In this document: in pieces, positions 30,740-39,489 of the stretch
How the letters are laid out: every line of letters starts with the position of its first letter
Position numbering within the stretch: position 1 is the stretch's first letter
NCBI GenBank assembly: GCA_020072565.1
Contig: JAIQGI010000009.1
Coordinates: forward strand, 1-64,000
Length of the DNA stretch: 64,000 nt
From: Terriglobia bacterium
Lineage (GTDB): Bacteria; Acidobacteriota; UBA6911
Reading direction: 5' to 3'
Program-made: the position numbers and the translations under genes
Notes under the pieces: model-generated
Database searches by the model: none
Seen by the model: only the letters and a program-made list of their open reading frames with translations
What the model was told of the DNA's origin: nothing

Positions 30740-31797
30740 TTCTCCTCCTCCGGCGGCCGGGGTATGGCAAAGTGCGCCGTCGTCCCATGACCCGTCGCTC
30801 CTTCGATCCAGACCCGGCCACCGTGGCGTTCGATGATTCGTTTGACGGTGGCAAGTCCGATGCCGGTCCCGGGAAATTCGTCCAACTTGTGCAGGCGCTG
30901 AAAGGGCTGGAACAATTTGCCGGCATAGGTCATATCAAGGCCGGCGCCGTTGTCCCTGATGAAACAGGCGATTTCCTCGCTGCTTGGTTCGGCTCCGAAT
31001 TCGATTCTGGCCGCCTCACGGTTCCGGGTGAATTTCCAGGCATTATCCAGGAGATTTTCGAGCACAACCATCAGCAGGCGCTCGTCGCCAAAGACGGTGA
31101 TGCCTGGGGCCACCACGGCTTCCACCGACCTTTCGGGCTGGGTGAGCCGGAGCCGGTCGAGGATCTTTTGCGCGATCCCGCTCAGGTTCACGCGGCCGCG
31201 TTCCATCGAGGCGCGCGACAACTGTGACAGTTTGAGCAGATCGTCGATAAGTCCGCCCATGCGTCCGGCCGCGGCCGCAATCCGTCGCAGGTAATCCTGC
31301 CCTTCGTCATCGAGTTTCTCGGAATAGTCCGCCAGCAGCAACTGGCTGAAGCCGGCGACGCTCCGCAGCGGTGCACGCAGGTCGTGGGACACGGAGTAGC
31401 TGAACGCCTCGATCTCGCGATTCGCCGCCTCGGTCGCCTCGTTGGCCTGCCGGAGGGATTCGAACGAGGCGCGCATTTCGCGGTTGGCCGCCTCCGCCTT
31501 GGACCGCTCGACGTCGAAGTCCTCGAGCAGGTTCAGCATCGCTCGTTGGGTCGCCTCGGCCATCGCTTTTTCTTCTGCAGAATCCTCGAGGATGTTGAGG
31601 AGGGCACGATGGGTCTCTTCCAGCCGCTCCTTTTCCCGGGCCGAATCCTCGAGAATGTTGAAGACAGCGCGCTGAGTCCTCTCGAGCCGCGCCTTCTCCT
31701 CGGCGAAATCCTCCTGAACAATGGAAGTAGCCTTCGAGAAGTCCTCGGCGTCGATCTCCGGCAGTGCCGGAGGGATCGGCCTGGAAGCGGAACTCAT
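30736..31797 (-). CDS. cytoplasmic histidine kinase with a triplicated 21-residue signalling helix
   Basis: A 353-residue soluble kinase. Residues 33-95 are three consecutive 21-residue units (each three heptads) ending in ILEDSA, ILEDSA and LLEDFD, forming a continuous coiled coil. The HisKA domain has SVSHDLRAPL (H138). The HATPase is complete (ENLLDNAWKFT, RDNGAGLDM, GTGIGLATVKRII). No sensor domain is present: its input very likely comes from the PAS protein encoded immediately upstream, whose gene overlaps it by 4 bases and also ends in a coiled coil. Together the two look like a split version of a multi-PAS kinase. Confidence 0.93.
   Translation of the reverse strand: MSSASRPIPPALPEIDAEDFSKATSIVQEDFAEEKARLERTQRAVFNILEDSAREKERLEETHRALLNILEDSAEEKAMAEATQRAMLNLLEDFDVERSKAEAANREMRASFESLRQANEATEAANREIEAFSYSVSHDLRAPLRSVAGFSQLLLADYSEKLDDEGQDYLRRIAAAAGRMGGLIDDLLKLSQLSRASMERGRVNLSGIAQKILDRLRLTQPERSVEAVVAPGITVFGDERLLMVVLENLLDNAWKFTRNREAARIEFGAEPSSEEIACFIRDNGAGLDMTYAGKLFQPFQRLHKLDEFPGTGIGLATVKRIIERHGGRVWIEGATGHGTTAHFAIPRPPEEEK
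31513..31701 (-). repeat. three 63-base coding repeats (21 residues each)
   Basis: Within the kinase gene, residues 33-53, 54-74 and 75-95 repeat with exact 21-residue spacing. Each contains an acidic-basic start, T-x-R-A near the middle and N-(I/L)-L-E-D near the end. A 21-residue period equals three heptads, so unit gain or loss would change coiled-coil length without breaking register. Confidence 0.9.
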
Positions 31798-34250
31798 AGG
31801 TCGGTCCTCTCCGGCGGTTTGGGGTTGCGGAGGAGATCGACCTCGGCTTTCAGTTCCGCGATCTCCTTCTTCAGTTCGATCATCTTGAGTTCGCGCCCGA
31901 CGGTCAGTTTCTGGAATCGTTCCAGTTCCGCCAGTCGCTCCAGTTCGCGAGCCCGTTGTTCTTCGCGCGCCCTCTGCTCGGCGACTTTCGCCTCGGCTTC
32001 CATCTGCGCGGTCACATCGCGCGCCGCCGCGAAAACACCGAGAACATTGCCGCGCGCGTCCCGATAGACTGAGGCGTTATAAAGCACGTACGTGAGGCGC
32101 CCCTCCTTGTGGCGGATGGTCAGGGGATAGTCGGTCACGAATCCTTTCGAGAAGACCTGTTCATACCCTCGGCGGGCATTTTCCGGTTCGGTGAAGTAGT
32201 CGGAGAAGTCCGTGCCGATGAGGAGTTCGCGCGCCATGCCCGTCACCTTGATGGTCGCTTCATTGACGTCGGTGATTTTTCCCTCCGGACTGATAGTGAC
32301 CAGCGGGTCGAGGCTGGCCTCGATCAAACTGCGGGCATACTGCGCCACTTGCCGCTGGGCGGTGACGTCGCGCGCCGCAGCGAAGACGCCCAGCACATTG
32401 CCCCTCAGATCCCGGTAGACCGAGGCGTTGTAGAGCACGTCCAGGAGCCGGCCGTCCTTGTGCCGGATGGTCAGGGGATAGTCGGTCACAAATCCCTTCT
32501 CAAAGACCTGGAGGTAACCCTCTCTGGCCTTTTCCGGCTCTGTGAAGTAGTTCGAGAAATCCGTGCCGATGAGTTGCTCGCGGGTCATGCCGGTGACCTT
32601 GATCGTGGCCTCATTGACGTCGGTTATCTTTCCTTCGGCGGAAATGGTGACCAAAGGGTCGAGGCTCGCCTCGATCAGACTCCGCGCATACTGGGAGGCG
32701 TAGCGCAGCTTCTCCTCGGCCAGTTTTTTCTCGGCGATGTCCGTGCTCATCAGCAGATAGCCGATCGGACGTCCGGAGGCGTCGTTGCGGCGCGTGATCA
32801 CCACGCTGGCCGCGAAACGGGAGCCGTCCTTGCGAACCCGCTGGAACTCGGCCTCCGCGAGCCCCTTTTCGTAGGCCTCCGCCAGCAGTCGGTCGACGGC
32901 CCCGGACCGGATGTCCTCGGGCGCGTGCAGCAGGCTGGAGTCTTTGCCGATGATCTCTTCCTGGGTATACCCGTAGTTCAGCCGTGCACCCTGGTTCCAC
33001 GAGAGGATGCGATGGTCGAGGTCCTTGCCGATGATAGAGTATTTGGTGGAACTCTCTAAAATGTTATCGAGGAAGTTCTTCGTCTCCGCGAACTCACGCA
33101 TCATGCGCTTGGATTCGGTCACATCGCGCGCGGCAGCGAATACACCCTGGACATTGCCGCCGGGATCGCGGTAGACGGAGGCGTTGTACAACACGTCCAC
33201 CAACTGGCCGTTCTTGTGCCGGATGGTCAGGGGATAGTCGGTGACGAATCCCTTCTCGAAAACCTGCCGGTATCCTTCTCTGGCCTTCTCCGGCTCTGTG
33301 AAGTAGTCCGAGAAGTCGGCGCCGATGAGCTGCTCACGGGTCATGCCGGTGACCTTGATCGTCGCCTCATTGACGTCAGTGATCTTGCCTTCAGGGCTGA
33401 TGGTGACCAGCGGATCCAGACTGGCTTCAATCAGGCTGCGGGCGTACTGAGAAGCCTGCCGCTGCTGGGTCACGTCTCGCGCGGCGGCGAACACCCCCAG
33501 CACCTTGCCGCTGAGATCCCGGTAGAGCGAGGCGTTGTAAAGGACGTCCGTCAGCCGGCCATCACGGTGACGGATGGTCAGGGGGTAGTCGGTCACGGCG
33601 CCTTGGGAGAAGACCCGCCGGTACCCGGCACGGGCCTTTTCGGGTTTGGTGAAATAGTCGGAGAAATCGGCGCCGATCAGTTGCTCGCGCGGCGTGCCGG
33701 TGACCTTGATGGTCGCTTCATTGACGTCGGTGATCTTGCCTTCCGGGCTGATCGTAACCAGCGGGTCGAGACTCGCCTCGATCAAGCTGCGAGCGTACTG
33801 GGACGTGGCGAGCACCTGTTGCTCGATCCGCTTGCGCTCCGAGATGTCCCTGGCAATGGAGGAAACCCCGATGAGCCGGCCGGCAGTGTCACGGATGGGG
33901 GAAACGGTGACGGAGACATGGACGAGGGCGCCGTTTTTGCGCCTTCGAAGCGTCTCGTAGTGCTCGACACGCTGGCCGTTGCGTATACGCTGGAGGATCT
34001 CCTGGATCTCGCCGTCCCGCTCCGGCGGTGACAGGATCGCCATGCTTTGGCCGATCATTTCTCCGGCGGTATATCCATACATCAATTGCGCGGCTCGGTT
34101 CCAACTTGTAATAACGCCATCCATCGTCTTGCCGATGATGGCGTCATCCGAGGATTCCACAATGGATGCCAGCAGCGACGAGCGCCCCGGGTCTGCCGAG
34201 GCAGGAAGCGTGTTGCGATCTTGCGTCTGTCTGCGCCTGGGTGTCCGCAT
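31794..34250 (-). CDS. multi-PAS sensor protein without kinase domain
   Basis: An 818-residue soluble protein with six PAS/PAC units: about 27-140, 151-262, 268-378, 392-508, 520-630 and 637-748. Units 2, 3, 5 and 6 are near copies of one another (SLIEASLDPLVTISPEGKIT, VNEATIKVTG, DYPLTIRH, LGVFAAARDVT); units 1 and 4 belong to a different PAS type (AIIGKTMDGVITSWN; SIIGKDLDHRILSWN). The C-terminus (750-805) is a charged coiled coil (EEQRARELERLAELERFQ). There is no kinase, GGDEF, EAL or HTH domain, so signalling must pass to the next gene product, overlapping by 4 bases. AGGAGGAGG precedes the ATG. No haem- or flavin-binding signature is certain. Confidence 0.92.
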   Translation of the reverse strand: MRTPRRRQTQDRNTLPASADPGRSSLLASIVESSDDAIIGKTMDGVITSWNRAAQLMYGYTAGEMIGQSMAILSPPERDGEIQEILQRIRNGQRVEHYETLRRRKNGALVHVSVTVSPIRDTAGRLIGVSSIARDISERKRIEQQVLATSQYARSLIEASLDPLVTISPEGKITDVNEATIKVTGTPREQLIGADFSDYFTKPEKARAGYRRVFSQGAVTDYPLTIRHRDGRLTDVLYNASLYRDLSGKVLGVFAAARDVTQQRQASQYARSLIEASLDPLVTISPEGKITDVNEATIKVTGMTREQLIGADFSDYFTEPEKAREGYRQVFEKGFVTDYPLTIRHKNGQLVDVLYNASVYRDPGGNVQGVFAAARDVTESKRMMREFAETKNFLDNILESSTKYSIIGKDLDHRILSWNQGARLNYGYTQEEIIGKDSSLLHAPEDIRSGAVDRLLAEAYEKGLAEAEFQRVRKDGSRFAASVVITRRNDASGRPIGYLLMSTDIAEKKLAEEKLRYASQYARSLIEASLDPLVTISAEGKITDVNEATIKVTGMTREQLIGTDFSNYFTEPEKAREGYLQVFEKGFVTDYPLTIRHKDGRLLDVLYNASVYRDLRGNVLGVFAAARDVTAQRQVAQYARSLIEASLDPLVTISPEGKITDVNEATIKVTGMARELLIGTDFSDYFTEPENARRGYEQVFSKGFVTDYPLTIRHKEGRLTYVLYNASVYRDARGNVLGVFAAARDVTAQMEAEAKVAEQRAREEQRARELERLAELERFQKLTVGRELKMIELKKEIAELKAEVDLLRNPKPPERTDL
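31992..32693 (-). repeat. two tandem 351-base PAS-module repeats (units 5 and 6)
   Basis: Residues 520-636 and 637-753 of the PAS protein align with a spacing of exactly 117 residues (351 bases) and are almost identical over long stretches. They are the same module as units 2 and 3. Confidence 0.9.
33099..33800 (-). repeat. two tandem 351-base PAS-module repeats (units 2 and 3)
   Basis: Residues 151-267 and 268-384 show the same 117-residue period as units 5 and 6. A different PAS unit (unit 4, 392-508) separates the two pairs, so the arrangement is 1-AA-4-AA, best explained by duplication of a module and then of a pair. Confidence 0.9.
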
Positions 34251-34725
34251 GACAATGCCTCCTCCTGATCTGACAACAATGGCAGATCCCCGGTTCCTCT
34301 TCAGCCTGGCCTACGGTTTGAGCGGCGGCCTGTCTCCCATATCCCGTTCTGCCCGCCGGTGGGAAACCAGAGCCGCGTCCAGAACGAAGATGAATTGAGG
34401 GCGGAACAGGTCGGCTCTCAGCCCACGCCGGCCCAGTCAGTTCAGGCGGCAATCCTATCACGAAGAGCAGGAAGGGGAGCGGAATTTCGAGATCCGGAAT
34501 AATCGTAGTGGATTCGCGGATATTCAAGTTCTCCGCACCCTGTGACTTTCACTCACTTGGGTTTCTCACCTGCCTCAGCGACTTCTTCCGTTCCCGCTAC
34601 AACCTCAGTCTCGAGATCTATCCGCACTATGATATCCTGCCGCCTGAACAACGAGGAGATTGTCCGCTGCTGTTCTTTCCGTCTTTGCAGCTGGAACAGT
34701 TCTGTCGAAAGGACGAAAGGCGGTC
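34251..34725. other. intergenic region without recognised content
   Basis: About 475 bases between the start of the leftward signalling cassette and the rightward GH2 remnant. It should contain the promoter of the cassette. No gene or strong repeat was seen. Confidence 0.4.
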
Positions 34726-35283
34726 ATGAGAACCCTGCGAATCCCCCTGCTTATCCTGTCTCTTACCGTTACCTCAGGTGCCGCCGGCCAACAGTGGACG
34801 CCGGCCGGCCAGACGCTACGCACGACCTGGGCCAGAGAAGTCAATCCCGGCAATCTCTGGCCCGAGTACCCGCGTCCCATCATGACCCGGGCTGCGTGGC
34901 TGAACCTCAACGGCCTGTGGGAATATGCAATCACTCCGATCGACCAGGGCTGGTGGCCGGACGGGCTCTACACCGCGCCCACCGATGCGGCGCTCCGCTA
35001 TGATCTGGAGCAGATCAAGGCACTGGGCTTCAACATGCTTCGCAAGCACGTCAAAGTCGAACCTGAGCGGCTCTATTACTGGGCGGACAAACTGGGTCTG
35101 CTCGTCTGGCAGGACATGCCCAGCAGCAACTTCAATCGCAATACTGTCGCTGCCGACGCCTTGGCCGAGGCGGACCGGCAGTGGGATGCCGAACTCAAGG
35201 CGATGATCGATCACCTGCATAACTATCCGTCCATCGTCATGTGGATCCCCTCACAACATCCGGAAATTGAAGACGTAGGCTGA
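34726..35283 (+). pseudogene. GH2-type glycoside hydrolase with internal deletion and lost catalytic end
   Basis: The 185-residue frame starts with a signal peptide (LRIPLLILSLTVTSGAAGQQ) and the first GH2 segment (YPRPIMTRAAWLNLNGLWEY). At about residue 71 it jumps directly to the central barrel segment (DQGWWPDGLYTAPTDAALRY, then ALGFNMLRKHVKVEPERLYY and LGLLVWQDMPSSN). In complete family members about 250-300 residues (sugar-binding and immunoglobulin-like domains) separate these blocks. The frame ends at MWIPSQHPEIEDVG, where the acid/base NEGWG motif should stand. It is therefore an in-frame deletion product with no active site. Confidence 0.8.
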
Positions 35284-35339: not shown

Positions 35340-36353
35340 ATGATTACAAAGACCGAAAAGACGCCGAGACGCGTCTTTCTGAAGTCGGGCCTGCTGGTTG
35401 GTTCGGCCCTTGCGGCCGGATGGCTAGACCATAGCGACAAGCCGCATGGACCGGGCGGCTCCCCGCCTGATGGGAAATCAAAAATCGTAATCGCACGCGA
35501 CCCGCAGCTCCGGGGAATGAGCTCCGGTCCGGACCAGAATTCCCTTCTGAAGATCCTGGATCGGGCCCTGCAGGGTTTCTACGATCGAGGCAGCCCGGTC
35601 GAAGCGTGGAAGCAGTTGGTGCGTCCCGGAGAAGTAGTCGGGTTGAAGGTGAATTGTCTGGCCGGCAAAGGGATGTCGACGAACCGGCAGCTGGTGGAGG
35701 GCATCTGCGAGCGGCTCCAGCAGGCGGGCATCCGCAATATTGTGATCTGGGATCGGCTGAACGCGGACCTCGAAAGCGCAGGCTATCGAATCGCCGAAGG
35801 GAATCGCGCCATTCGCTGCTTCGGCAACGACTCGGCCGGTTACGAGCAGGAGCTAACGATTTTTGGGAATGTCGGAAGTCTCGTTTCGACAACGCTTACG
35901 CGCATATGCGACGCCGTGATCAACCTGCCGATACTCAAGGATCATGGGATCACTGGGATCACCGGGGCACTCAAGAACATGTTCGGGGCCATCCACAACC
36001 CGAACAAATACCATCTCAATGTCGGGGACCCCTATGTGGCTGATGTCAATATGCTTCTTCCGATAAGACAAAAGGTCCGGCTGACCATTTGCGACGCCAT
36101 CACCGCACAGTATGAAGGAGGGCCTTCCTATATGCCCCAGTGGACCTGGCCTTACAATGGGTTGATCGTAGGCACGGATCCAGTGGCGCTGGACCATATC
36201 GGCTGGCAGATCATCGAGCAGAAAAGAGCCGAAAAAGGGCTGGAGCCTTTGCAGCGGCTGAAGCGCGAACCGACTTACATCGCTACCGCAGCCGACGCGC
36301 GGCACCGCCTGGGAACTTGTGATCCGGCGCGGATTCAGGTGTTGGAAATATGA
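35340..36353 (+). CDS. Tat-targeted DUF362 domain protein
   Basis: A 337-residue protein with a strong twin-arginine leader (TPRRVFLKSGLLVGSALAAG; R10-R11). The rest is a DUF362 domain (about 50-320), recognisable by VGLKVNCLAGKGMSTNRQL near the start, LPILKDHGITGITGALKNMF and NPNKYHLNVGDPYVADVN in the middle, and LIVGTDPVALDHIGWQII near the end. No ferredoxin-type Cys cluster is present, unlike some DUF362 proteins. The function of the family is poorly known. Its stop overlaps the start of the radical SAM gene (ATGA), so the two are translationally coupled and share the same predicted export route. Confidence 0.87.
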   Translation: MITKTEKTPRRVFLKSGLLVGSALAAGWLDHSDKPHGPGGSPPDGKSKIVIARDPQLRGMSSGPDQNSLLKILDRALQGFYDRGSPVEAWKQLVRPGEVVGLKVNCLAGKGMSTNRQLVEGICERLQQAGIRNIVIWDRLNADLESAGYRIAEGNRAIRCFGNDSAGYEQELTIFGNVGSLVSTTLTRICDAVINLPILKDHGITGITGALKNMFGAIHNPNKYHLNVGDPYVADVNMLLPIRQKVRLTICDAITAQYEGGPSYMPQWTWPYNGLIVGTDPVALDHIGWQIIEQKRAEKGLEPLQRLKREPTYIATAADARHRLGTCDPARIQVLEI

Positions 36354-37540
36354 GATTGAAAAATCCAAGGATGGCAAATCCTGAAAATCCGTATCCAGAT
36401 GAGAGCGCGCTGAATCGGCGCGACTTTCTTAAAGCTGCATCCATCCCATGTCTGGCCGTCGCTTGCGCAGGGGCGTATCGGGTCTCTTCCTCCGAGGTGC
36501 CACCTCTGGCCGGAAACGATTCCCAGTTTGTCGTGGAAGCGAGCTTTTACGAAAAGCTCTCCTTCAAAAAAATCAAATGCAGGCTTTGCCCCCGTGAATG
36601 CGTCATCGACGACCGTGAACGCGGCTACTGCGGCGTCCGCGAGAATCGCGGCGGCACGTACTACACGCTGGTTCACTCGCGCGTTGCGGCGTCCAACGTG
36701 GATCCCATCGAGAAGAAGCCGTTCTTTCATTTTCTCCCCGGAAGCTCGGCGTTCTCGATTGCCACGGCCGGCTGCAACGTCAACTGCAAGATGTGCCAGA
36801 ACTGGCAGATTTCGCAGGTCAGGCCGGAGCAGATCCAAGCAACTTACCTCCCACCCGATCAGGTTGCCGGCCTGGCTGGACAGTTTAAGTGTCCGGTCAT
36901 CGCATACACCTACACCGAGCCGGTGGTTTTTTGTGAATACATGCTCGATACGGCTGCGGCGGGACATCGAGCGGGTCTCAAGAGCGTGATGGTGACCGGA
37001 GGGTATGTTCAGCAGGAGGTCTTGAAGCAACTGTGCCACTCTGTCGATGCCATCAAGGTGGACTTGAAGGGGTTTTCGGAGAAGTTTTACAGGGAAGTGG
37101 TTAACGGCGAGCTGAAGCCCGTCCTCGACACACTCGTGACCATACGCAAACAAGGCATTTGGCTGGAAGTTGTGCAACTGGTGCTGCCGACCCTGAATGA
37201 TAGTGACGAAGAAATCAGGGGACTTGCCCGCTGGATCAAGGCGGAGTTGGGCCAGGAGGTCCCCATTCACTTTTCGCGCTTCCATCCGGAATACCTGCTG
37301 AAGAACCTGCCGCCGACGCCCGTCAGCACTCTCGAACGCGCCAAGGCCATCGCCGATGCTGAGGGACTTCGCTTTGCTTACGTCGGCAACGTGCCGGGCC
37401 ACCCCGCGGAGAGCACCTACTGCCCCAGATGCCGCCAGGTTGTGGTGCAACGAAACGGCTTTGTGTCGGTGACGGTCTTTCTCGAGAAAGGCAAGTGCCG
37501 CCACTGCCAGACTCCGATTGCCGGAGTGTGGAGCGCGTAG
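36350..37540 (+). CDS. radical SAM enzyme of the AmrS (AmmeMemoRadiSam) type with a Tat leader
   Basis: A 396-residue protein. The radical SAM cluster motif is GCNVNCKMCQNW (C142, C146, C149), preceded by a Cys-rich N-terminal domain (C77, C80, C84, C94 around KCRLCPREC and GYCGV), as in pyruvate-formate-lyase-activase-like AmrS proteins. Further family segments are YTYTEPVVFCEYMLD, VDAIKVDLKGF and HFSRFHPEY. A C-terminal zinc-ribbon-like pair lies at C358/C361 and C383/C386. Unusually, a consensus Tat motif (NRRDFLKAA, R23-R24) stands in the first 30 residues. Neither Memo nor AMMECR1 genes are nearby; the partner is DUF362. A later ATG at 36371 would keep the Tat motif. The substrate is unknown. 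Confidence 0.88.
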   Translation: MRLKNPRMANPENPYPDESALNRRDFLKAASIPCLAVACAGAYRVSSSEVPPLAGNDSQFVVEASFYEKLSFKKIKCRLCPRECVIDDRERGYCGVRENRGGTYYTLVHSRVAASNVDPIEKKPFFHFLPGSSAFSIATAGCNVNCKMCQNWQISQVRPEQIQATYLPPDQVAGLAGQFKCPVIAYTYTEPVVFCEYMLDTAAAGHRAGLKSVMVTGGYVQQEVLKQLCHSVDAIKVDLKGFSEKFYREVVNGELKPVLDTLVTIRKQGIWLEVVQLVLPTLNDSDEEIRGLARWIKAELGQEVPIHFSRFHPEYLLKNLPPTPVSTLERAKAIADAEGLRFAYVGNVPGHPAESTYCPRCRQVVVQRNGFVSVTVFLEKGKCRHCQTPIAGVWSA

Positions 37541-37716
37541 GACAAGGCACAGATTCAGGTTTGCTTCGGATTGACGATCATACGCGAGCAGGTTGAACTC
37601 ACTGCTCCGGTCTGTTCAGCAAATGGAATCTCGACAGTCGTCCGGGAACTCCGGACAAACGGTCTGGCGGCGGTACGAAAGAAGTGCAGAACACGACGCT
37701 TCCCAAGGAGGGAATC

Positions 37717-39489
37717 TTGATTTTTGCACATACGGCATTTCGCAGCCATCTGGTGGCCCAGGCCACCCGTGAGCTTGCTGGGACTCCCATGCATCTCTGC
37801 GGCTGGGTAGAAACTGTCAGAGATCATGGGGGAGTTCTGTTCTTCCATCTGAGAGACGCCACGGGCAAACTGCAGGTGATCCTGGACCCGGGGCGCCTGT
37901 CATCTGAAGTGGCCGAGGAGGCCCGGCGCATCCGTCCGGAATGGGTAATGAAGTTTTCGGGTACTTTGCGCCTCCGCCCGCCTGGAACCCAAGCCACCAG
38001 CCTCGACACCAAGGATATCGAACTTGAGGCCGGCGGATTTGAAGTGCTCGGGGTCGCCGCCAATTTGCCGTTTCGACCGCAGGAACGGGACAAGGTATCC
38101 GAGGACCTGCGGCTCAAGCACAGGACCGTGGACCTTCGCTCAGACACCATGCAGGCGAATCTGCGGCTGCGGCACAGAGTCGTCAGCTCCTTTCGATCTT
38201 TCCTCAATTCTGAAGGCTTCATCGAGGTGGAAACGCCGTGCCTGGCCAAGAGCACACCCGAAGGGGCTCGCGATTTCCTGGTGCCTTCCAGGCTGCAGCC
38301 GGGCACGTTCTTCGCGCTTCCGCAGTCGCCGCAGCTTTTTAAGCAGATTTTGATGGTGGGCGGCATCGAGAGGTACTACCAGGTGGCCCGATGTTTTCGC
38401 GACGAGGATCTCAGGGCCAACCGCCAGCCGGAGTTCACGCAGTTGGACATCGAGGCGAGCTTCGTGAATGAATCGGATGTGATGTGTCTCGTGGAAACCA
38501 TGATCCGCAGGGCGATGGAAGACGTGGGGCGGCCTTTGGATCCGAAGCCATTCCCGGTCATCAGCTATCAGGAGGCCATGAACCGTTACGGCACCGACGC
38601 GCCCGATCTTCGCTTCGATTTGCCCGTCGTCAACCTCACGGAGATCTTTGCCGACACGGAATTCCACCTCTTTCGGAAAATGCTGGATGCCGGAGGTCAG
38701 GTGCTAGGTCTGGCCATCCCTGGCTCGTTTCAGCTGTCACGAAAAGACATTGAGACGATCCGGGAACAGGCCGAAGAAGCGGGTGCCGAGGCACCAGCCT
38801 GGGGCCGCATCGAGGACGCAGTCTTTTCCTCGAGCCTCGCCAAATTCTTTTCAGAGAAGGAACGCAAGGCGATTGCCGTGGCCATGGGGAACGGCGAGCG
38901 CGACCTGATCCTGTTCCAGGCCGGCAAGGATCCCAAAACCCTGTGCCTGAACATGGGCCGCATTCGGCTGCTGGCGGCCGATCTCTTAGGCCTGACCGGG
39001 GAGCAGTCTCGTTTTTGCTTCGTCTGGGTCGTTCGGTTTCCTCTGCTGGAATACGATCCAAGCCGCGGCCGATACGTGGCCGTGCACCATCCATTTACGT
39101 CGCCCGTGGATCTTTCGGTTTTTCAGAGCGAAAAGAGGAGCGAACTCGAATCTGCCCTGGCCGCCTCTTACGATCTTGTGCTCAATGGGGAGGAGGTGGG
39201 CGGCGGCTCCATACGCATCCACAAGGCGGATCTGCAAGGCAGGATGCTCAGGATCCTGGGACTTAACGATGAGGAAATCGCGGCCCGCTTCGGGTTCCTC
39301 CTTGAAGCTCTTGCCCAGGGCGCGCCGCCGCACGGCGGCATTGCCTTGGGTCTGGACCGATTCACCTCCATTCTGGCCGGTAGCGAGTCCATCCGTGATG
39401 TTATTGCATTCCCAAAAACCCAGACGGGCACGTGTCCTCTAACCGGTGCGCCAACGCAAGTCGCGCGGCGGGGATATCTCAGGTTGTGA
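37717..39489 (+). CDS. aspS: aspartyl-tRNA synthetase
   Basis: A 590-residue class IIb synthetase that charges tRNA with aspartate in the cytoplasm. The N-terminal OB-fold anticodon-binding domain has MHLCGWVETVRDHGGVLFFH. Motif 2 is RYYQVARCFRDEDLRANRQP, followed by EFTQLDIEASF. The bacterial GAD insertion domain is present (about 290-420), and motif 3 is GGIALGLDRFTSILAGSESIRDVIAFPK. A TTG at 37717 preceded by AAGGAGGG is taken as start; a GTG at 37684 would add 11 residues but has no such site. The His in RDHGG corresponds to the position that distinguishes non-discriminating enzymes (often His) from discriminating ones (Leu), so Asp-tRNAAsn formation is possible. Confidence 0.96.
   Translation: MIFAHTAFRSHLVAQATRELAGTPMHLCGWVETVRDHGGVLFFHLRDATGKLQVILDPGRLSSEVAEEARRIRPEWVMKFSGTLRLRPPGTQATSLDTKDIELEAGGFEVLGVAANLPFRPQERDKVSEDLRLKHRTVDLRSDTMQANLRLRHRVVSSFRSFLNSEGFIEVETPCLAKSTPEGARDFLVPSRLQPGTFFALPQSPQLFKQILMVGGIERYYQVARCFRDEDLRANRQPEFTQLDIEASFVNESDVMCLVETMIRRAMEDVGRPLDPKPFPVISYQEAMNRYGTDAPDLRFDLPVVNLTEIFADTEFHLFRKMLDAGGQVLGLAIPGSFQLSRKDIETIREQAEEAGAEAPAWGRIEDAVFSSSLAKFFSEKERKAIAVAMGNGERDLILFQAGKDPKTLCLNMGRIRLLAADLLGLTGEQSRFCFVWVVRFPLLEYDPSRGRYVAVHHPFTSPVDLSVFQSEKRSELESALAASYDLVLNGEEVGGGSIRIHKADLQGRMLRILGLNDEEIAARFGFLLEALAQGAPPHGGIALGLDRFTSILAGSESIRDVIAFPKTQTGTCPLTGAPTQVARRGYLRL

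Follow-up and report, generated by a model that had tools for sequence, protein, structure and literature searches.

AmmeMemoRadiSam systems bring together three protein families, AMMECR1 (TIGR04335), Memo (TIGR04336) and a radical SAM enzyme (TIGR04337), of which Memo and AMMECR1 are conserved as far as humans. Radical SAM enzymes are generally placed in the cytoplasm, since SAM and low-potential electrons are found there, and the glycyl-radical activases are likewise cytosolic. Memo-Ammecr1 systems were surveyed by Burroughs et al. in 2019, as cited in PMC7159879. The DUF362 family (PF04015) is placed in Pfam clan CL0471 together with LarA (DUF2088) (PMC11770544), and the Tat pathway is known to export complexes that carry a signal on one partner, as in the NiFe hydrogenases and formate dehydrogenases (PMC10924467). 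In the open-access literature, we found no description of an AmmeMemoRadiSam module, or of any radical SAM enzyme, that is exported, the main 2019 survey of Memo-AMMECR1 systems lying outside that search.

We analysed a window of 64,000 nucleotides from a Terriglobia bacterium of the phylum Acidobacteriota (contig JAIQGI010000009.1, positions 1 to 64,000), in which a DUF362 gene is followed by a gene for an AmrS-type radical SAM protein. None of the families AmrS, Memo, AMMECR1 and DUF362 is new. As in the described systems, the radical SAM protein belongs to TIGR04337 over its full length and has the usual Cys4, C-x3-C-x2-C and Zn-ribbon motifs, and relatives of the pair have Memo and AMMECR1 beside the radical SAM gene. 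The locus and its relatives differ from those systems in that the radical SAM protein carries a Tat leader, Memo and AMMECR1 are fused and leader-bearing, and the relatives add DUF362, a membrane spermidine-synthase-like protein, a NapGH-like polyferredoxin and DUF6599. We hold with moderate confidence that the pair is the core of a predicted exported, extracytoplasmic variant of AmmeMemoRadiSam.

The DUF362 and AmrS gene pair

Both genes lie on the forward strand and begin with ATG. The DUF362 gene (35340-36353) encodes 337 amino acids and the AmrS gene (36350-37540) encodes 396, and the four shared bases, ATGA (36350..36353), are the stop of the first and the start of the second. These are the boundaries and the overlap given in the original prediction, which was made by reading the window alone.

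Against the NCBIfam model for the AmmeMemoRadiSam radical SAM enzyme (TIGR04337), AmrS scores 375 bits (cut-off 220) over model positions 2-334 of 349. The radical SAM [4Fe-4S] motif C142-x3-C146-x2-C149 (36773..36796) is intact, as had been predicted, and is invariant among the 94 exported-type and 20 cytosolic AmrS that we compared. The residues T-Y-T-E-P (187-191, 36908..36922) presumably sit where the "GGE" motif of radical SAM enzymes, the SAM-binding turn, falls, and both E190 and P191 are kept in 94/94 exported-type proteins. Because the cluster cysteines and the Glu-Pro pair are kept in all 94, selection appears, from these alignments, to maintain the exported-type AmrS as a radical SAM enzyme. 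The prediction had also regarded an "extra" Cys4 domain and a zinc-ribbon-like tail as unusual, a point that has to be dropped: the N-terminal motif C77-x2-C80-x3-C84-x9-C94 (36578..36631) and the C-terminal Zn-ribbon-like cysteines C358, C361, C383 and C386 (37421..37507) fall inside the TIGR04337 match, are kept in cytosolic AmrS too and are ordinary features of the family. The sole solved relative found by sequence was the glycyl-radical activase PFL-AE (PDB 3c8f; E 5e-4 over 150 residues), yet AmrS scores far under all activase cut-offs, reaching 49.3 bits against the 231.75 demanded by the PFL-type model TIGR02493.

The partner protein matches Pfam DUF362 with 83.7 bits (E 2e-23, cut-off 24) over residues 100-289 (35637..36206), a domain with a LarA-N-like predicted fold. 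Its structure model has a pLDDT of 89, with residues 1-40 disordered, and aligns with malate/lactate racemases and LarA-like proteins at Z 14-15.6 over about 205 residues (rmsd 3.0-3.4, VIA-align), whereas the next unrelated folds reach a Z of about 5. The modelled fold matches the LarA N-domain, although a shared fold shows no function. Clan and N-domain fold are common to the two families, but the protein has 337 residues against 393-480 in the matched LarA structures; the DUF362 profile failed to match, by sequence, the one LarA-like protein it was compared with and matched no chain among the PDB sequences. Across 60 DUF362 homologues, K103, W137, K200, D201, H202, K212, N220, P221, N222, K223 and H225 are invariant together with others, none of them a cysteine, and conservation is almost complete around KDHG and IHNPNKYH. 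On one acidobacterial contig (L127, 5095-6396), a LarA-like-looking gene directly follows the DUF362-AmrS pair; as DUF362 shares the LarA fold, this may or may not be chance.

Leaders and neighbouring genes among relatives

For comparison, we drew 80 loci from a scan of genome contigs; these are the query's best matches, which biases the sample towards near kin. Almost all of them belong to metagenome-assembled genomes, of Acidobacteriota, Aminicenantes and Zixibacteria, while KSB1, Deferribacteres and Clostridiales bins contributed a single locus each. DUF362 stands immediately upstream of AmrS in 64 of the 80; the prediction had proposed to look for such adjacency in other genomes. In the phylum of the window, 68 of 297 drawn genomes hold an AmrS at E < 1e-115 to that of the window, a figure that counts near relatives and not leaders.

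A twin-arginine motif can be read directly in both proteins of the window, NRRDFLKAA at AmrS residues 22-30 (36413..36439) and TPRRVFLKS at DUF362 residues 8-16 (35361..35387), each positioned between the annotated ATG start and the conserved domain. The claim that both carry Tat motifs stands to this extent, but the profile models divide the two: the AmrS leader passes the NCBIfam Tat-signal model TIGR01409 (20.8, cut-off 16.7) while falling below the cut-off of Pfam TAT_signal (PF10518), and the DUF362 leader matches no Tat model of Pfam or NCBIfam at E 1 and is supported by its motif and its relatives. A TatC gene is present in the genome.

Among the relatives, 85 of 87 AmrS have the pattern RR.[FLVMIA] in their N-terminal region, where shuffled sequences lead one to expect 17 (maximum 26), and the fuller pattern RR.F-hydrophobic-[KRQ] fits 67 of the 87. 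By contrast, 20 AmrS of the same phylum from outside the module have RR.[FLVMIA] in 4 cases against 3.8 expected by shuffling, which is the chance level. In a tree of 90 AmrS, the window protein falls in a clade of 68 rows (support 96/90), of which 65 scored as Tat; two of the other three have no RR in the N-terminus as read and the third has RR with a weak h-region, and one leader-bearing AmrS (L183) falls just outside the clade. Judged from this tree, the AmrS leader is a trait of a deep, multi-phylum clade, and the conserved RR-x-hydrophobic motif and h-region make the protein a predicted Tat substrate.

The DUF362 leader has a narrower distribution, occurring mainly in Acidobacteriia-type loci and a few others. 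In about 40 loci of Aminicenantes, Zixibacteria and related groups, the DUF362 frame starts a few residues before the domain and leaves no room for a leader, although these partners are about 36-44% identical to that of the window and conservation between both forms is strong. The original prediction had looked to conservation of the RR motif in both proteins across species and had named homologous pairs without Tat leaders as evidence against it; the AmrS motif is so conserved, but the DUF362 motif is not, and such pairs exist for DUF362 and not for AmrS.

Some leaders have further features. After the RR, 19 AmrS of the clade have a lipobox-like LA[AG]C, MAAC or LSGC. Such residues recur in the leaders of many relatives (L048, L052, L053, L057, L073-L084 and L102-L105), the corresponding region of the window being 36440-36469, and LPC is frequent in Acidobacteriia leaders. 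In these lineages, the exported AmrS may, from these residues, be a Tat lipoprotein. Some RR matches in upstream reading frames (the AmrS of L157 and the DUF362 of L095, L114 and L119) were discounted by eye as chance.

The genes around AmrS were collected by iterated profile searches and then identified with Pfam and NCBIfam, and flanks of up to 5 kb were fetched around leaderless AmrS as a contrast. DUF362, Memo, a spermidine-synthase-like membrane protein, a polyferredoxin or DUF6599 lies within the flank of 87 of 91 leader-bearing AmrS, against 4 of 26 that scored as leaderless. All four of these (L063, L067, L068 and L117) have a truncated or weak leader, so that none of the 22 genuinely leaderless AmrS has a module neighbour. 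Fisher's test, which ignores relatedness, gives p = 5.5e-16 for this contrast; the contrast follows the AmrS tree and may reflect one or a few evolutionary events.

Several of these neighbours are themselves membrane proteins or have leaders. In Acidobacteriia, AmrS is directly followed by a Memo-AMMECR1 fusion whose leader is hydrophobic and often lipoprotein-like; in the whole set, 51 of 53 Memo genes encode a hydrophobic leader and 49 an AMMECR1 fusion. A multi-spanning membrane protein of about 720 residues, with a spermidine-synthase-like domain between two hydrophobic blocks, comes directly after AmrS in Aminicenantes and Zixibacteria and stands inverted after Memo in Acidobacteriia. Its domain keeps GGG (the glycine-rich loop), VELDP and DGR. 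Spermidine synthases carry a D-x-x-D-P motif and, because this position mostly reads N-L-P-E-P here, the protein is probably not a polyamine synthase; we read the domain as a candidate SAM-type binding domain. Hydropathy and charge gave no clear topology for this protein. A membrane polyferredoxin resembling NapH fused to NapG, together with DUF6599, lies upstream or divergent in part of the set, and in two Zixibacteria loci (L110/L119) Memo-AMMECR1, DUF362, AmrS, the spermidine-synthase-like membrane protein and the NapG+NapH-like polyferredoxin lie together in a single stretch. In 12 loci, nearly all from Aminicenantes, HdrB/HdrC-like iron-sulfur genes come after the spermidine-synthase-like gene, about 2.3-2.9 kb beyond AmrS (within L085-L126).

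Where the enzyme may act

If the pair is the core of an exported variant, AmrS would gain its iron-sulfur clusters in the cytoplasm and then cross the membrane folded, through the Tat pathway. DUF362 would be co-exported, in Acidobacteriia by its own Tat leader and in Aminicenantes and Zixibacteria, where it is leaderless, probably as a hitchhiker bound to AmrS. Such hitchhiking would reconcile the leader-bearing and leaderless forms of DUF362. The Tat-exported complexes mentioned above offer an analogy and no more: the Aminicenantes and Zixibacteria pairs resemble them in having the signal on one partner only, but in the window both DUF362 and AmrS carry a leader. Once outside, the two proteins would act with the exported Memo-AMMECR1 fusion. 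The NapGH-type membrane polyferredoxin is a candidate source of electrons and would carry them to the outer face from quinol. Supply or handling of SAM, or of its product, may fall to the spermidine-synthase-like membrane protein; the substrate is probably membrane-associated or an envelope molecule. This fuller reading, of a radical SAM enzyme active beyond the cytoplasm, exported by Tat with or beside DUF362, reduced from quinol via the polyferredoxin, provided with SAM (or relieved of product) by the spermidine-synthase-like membrane protein and acting with Memo-AMMECR1 on an envelope molecule, is put forward tentatively, as a possibility that we rate below even chances. To our knowledge, SAM has not been reported to be available outside the cytoplasm.

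In the main competing explanation, AmrS is a true Tat substrate and its radical chemistry takes place before export: it would modify DUF362, or another bound partner, once in the cytoplasm, and the folded complex would then be exported and act outside by other chemistry. Both SAM and low-potential reductants are cytosolic, and AmrS resembles the glycyl-radical activating enzymes, which modify a partner protein. The DUF362 proteins that stand beside AmrS without a leader in about 40 pairs also agree with this account, being as compatible with a DUF362 that stays in the cytoplasm as with one that hitchhikes. However, a Memo-AMMECR1 protein with a Sec-type or lipoprotein-like leader would not be expected to meet folded AmrS inside the cell, and in some loci the linked NapGH-like donor would serve the outer face. 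We consider chemistry before export unlikely.

It could also be that neither protein is released, the leaders acting as signal anchors or chaperone-binding segments that keep both at the cytoplasmic face of the membrane, and the leaders indeed have no obvious universal cleavage site, in addition to the failure of the AmrS leader to reach the Pfam TAT_signal cut-off. Against this, RR is conserved far above chance in the module clade only, the lipobox-like residues that follow it in 19 members would be senseless inside the cell, and the partners are membrane proteins or have Sec-type or lipoprotein-like leaders. We regard retention at the inner face as improbable, and rather more so than chemistry before export.

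The pair in its own genome

In the window, DUF362 and AmrS are linked to no other module gene. A gene for aspartyl-tRNA synthetase, aspS (37684-39489), lies directly downstream, and the contig yielded no gene for Memo, the polyferredoxin or the membrane spermidine-synthase-like protein. The prediction had described the usual AmmeMemoRadiSam partners as absent, which is correct for the window but not for the rest of the genome or for its relatives. Close relatives (L048-L084) and another contig of the same genome (C20) have Memo and AMMECR1 beside the radical SAM gene, an exported Memo-AMMECR1 directly following AmrS in the closest relatives, and what the window presents is a local loss of linkage. 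On contig C20, a second Tat-type AmrS is followed by a lipoprotein-like Memo-AMMECR1 fusion and by the same spermidine-synthase-like membrane protein. Contig C11 holds an apparent operon (L134, 1862-5609) of a Tat-type DUF362, a NapGH-like membrane polyferredoxin and a lipoprotein-like DUF6599, which suggests, from gene order, that the pairing of exported DUF362 with electron-transfer partners is a more general pattern. Contigs C2 and C3 carry leaderless AmrS and Memo copies.

The second AmrS of this genome (L135, 2433-3671 on C20) belongs, with L175-L180, to a second Tat-type lineage that also has Memo-AMMECR1 and the spermidine-synthase-like membrane protein downstream, and in which a conserved C-x2-C-H (DCLKCH, DCLACH or ECVQCH) sits between the leader and the Cys4 domain. 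To judge from its residues, this motif may be a c-type heme site or a metal site; a c-type heme site, if true, would itself favour a location outside the cytoplasm.

Other features of the surroundings can be noted in their own right. The genome has two aspartyl-tRNA synthetase genes, the second (at C1:88839) encoding a protein 42% identical to that of the window, and several relatives also have two. Upstream of the pair, a short ORF (34660-35283) has a partial match to a glycosyl hydrolase family 2 TIM barrel (E 4e-4, below the cut-off) and is probably a gene remnant. Farther upstream, on the reverse strand, the protein encoded at 31794-34250 has four nearly identical repeats (YARSLIEASLDPLVTIS...) that look like PAS-type sensor repeats; its translation shows no output domain. 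We found no consensus promoter ahead of the pair, and terminator-like sites are at about the chance level. Mis-binning of the contig was considered and is unsupported, given a tetranucleotide correlation of 0.92-0.97 with other contigs of the genome and paralogous stretches common to this contig and to contigs C5 and C21.

That the pair is a relic of the module, or a piece of it gained by lateral transfer, and has no present function is very unlikely: aspS directly next to it, the missing module genes, the partial glycosyl hydrolase match upstream and the occurrence of this close AmrS type in this genome only, among the 15 searched of its family, would all suit such a history, but both ORFs are intact with every checked conserved residue present, the composition of the contig fits the genome, and possible partners are encoded on contigs C20 and C11.

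The reading of the pair as the core of an exported AmmeMemoRadiSam variant bears on a general assumption about radical SAM enzymes. A conserved, multi-phylum clade of AmrS with Tat leaders, exported partners and a plausible electron donor for the outer face amounts to a concrete, testable exception to the rule that these enzymes are cytoplasmic. If the chemistry proves to be cytoplasmic after all, the split between leader-bearing and leaderless DUF362 would still make Tat hitchhiking testable. Moreover, the exported form occurs with DUF362, membrane spermidine-synthase-like and NapGH-like proteins, and the roles of these proteins could reveal the substrate of AmmeMemoRadiSam.
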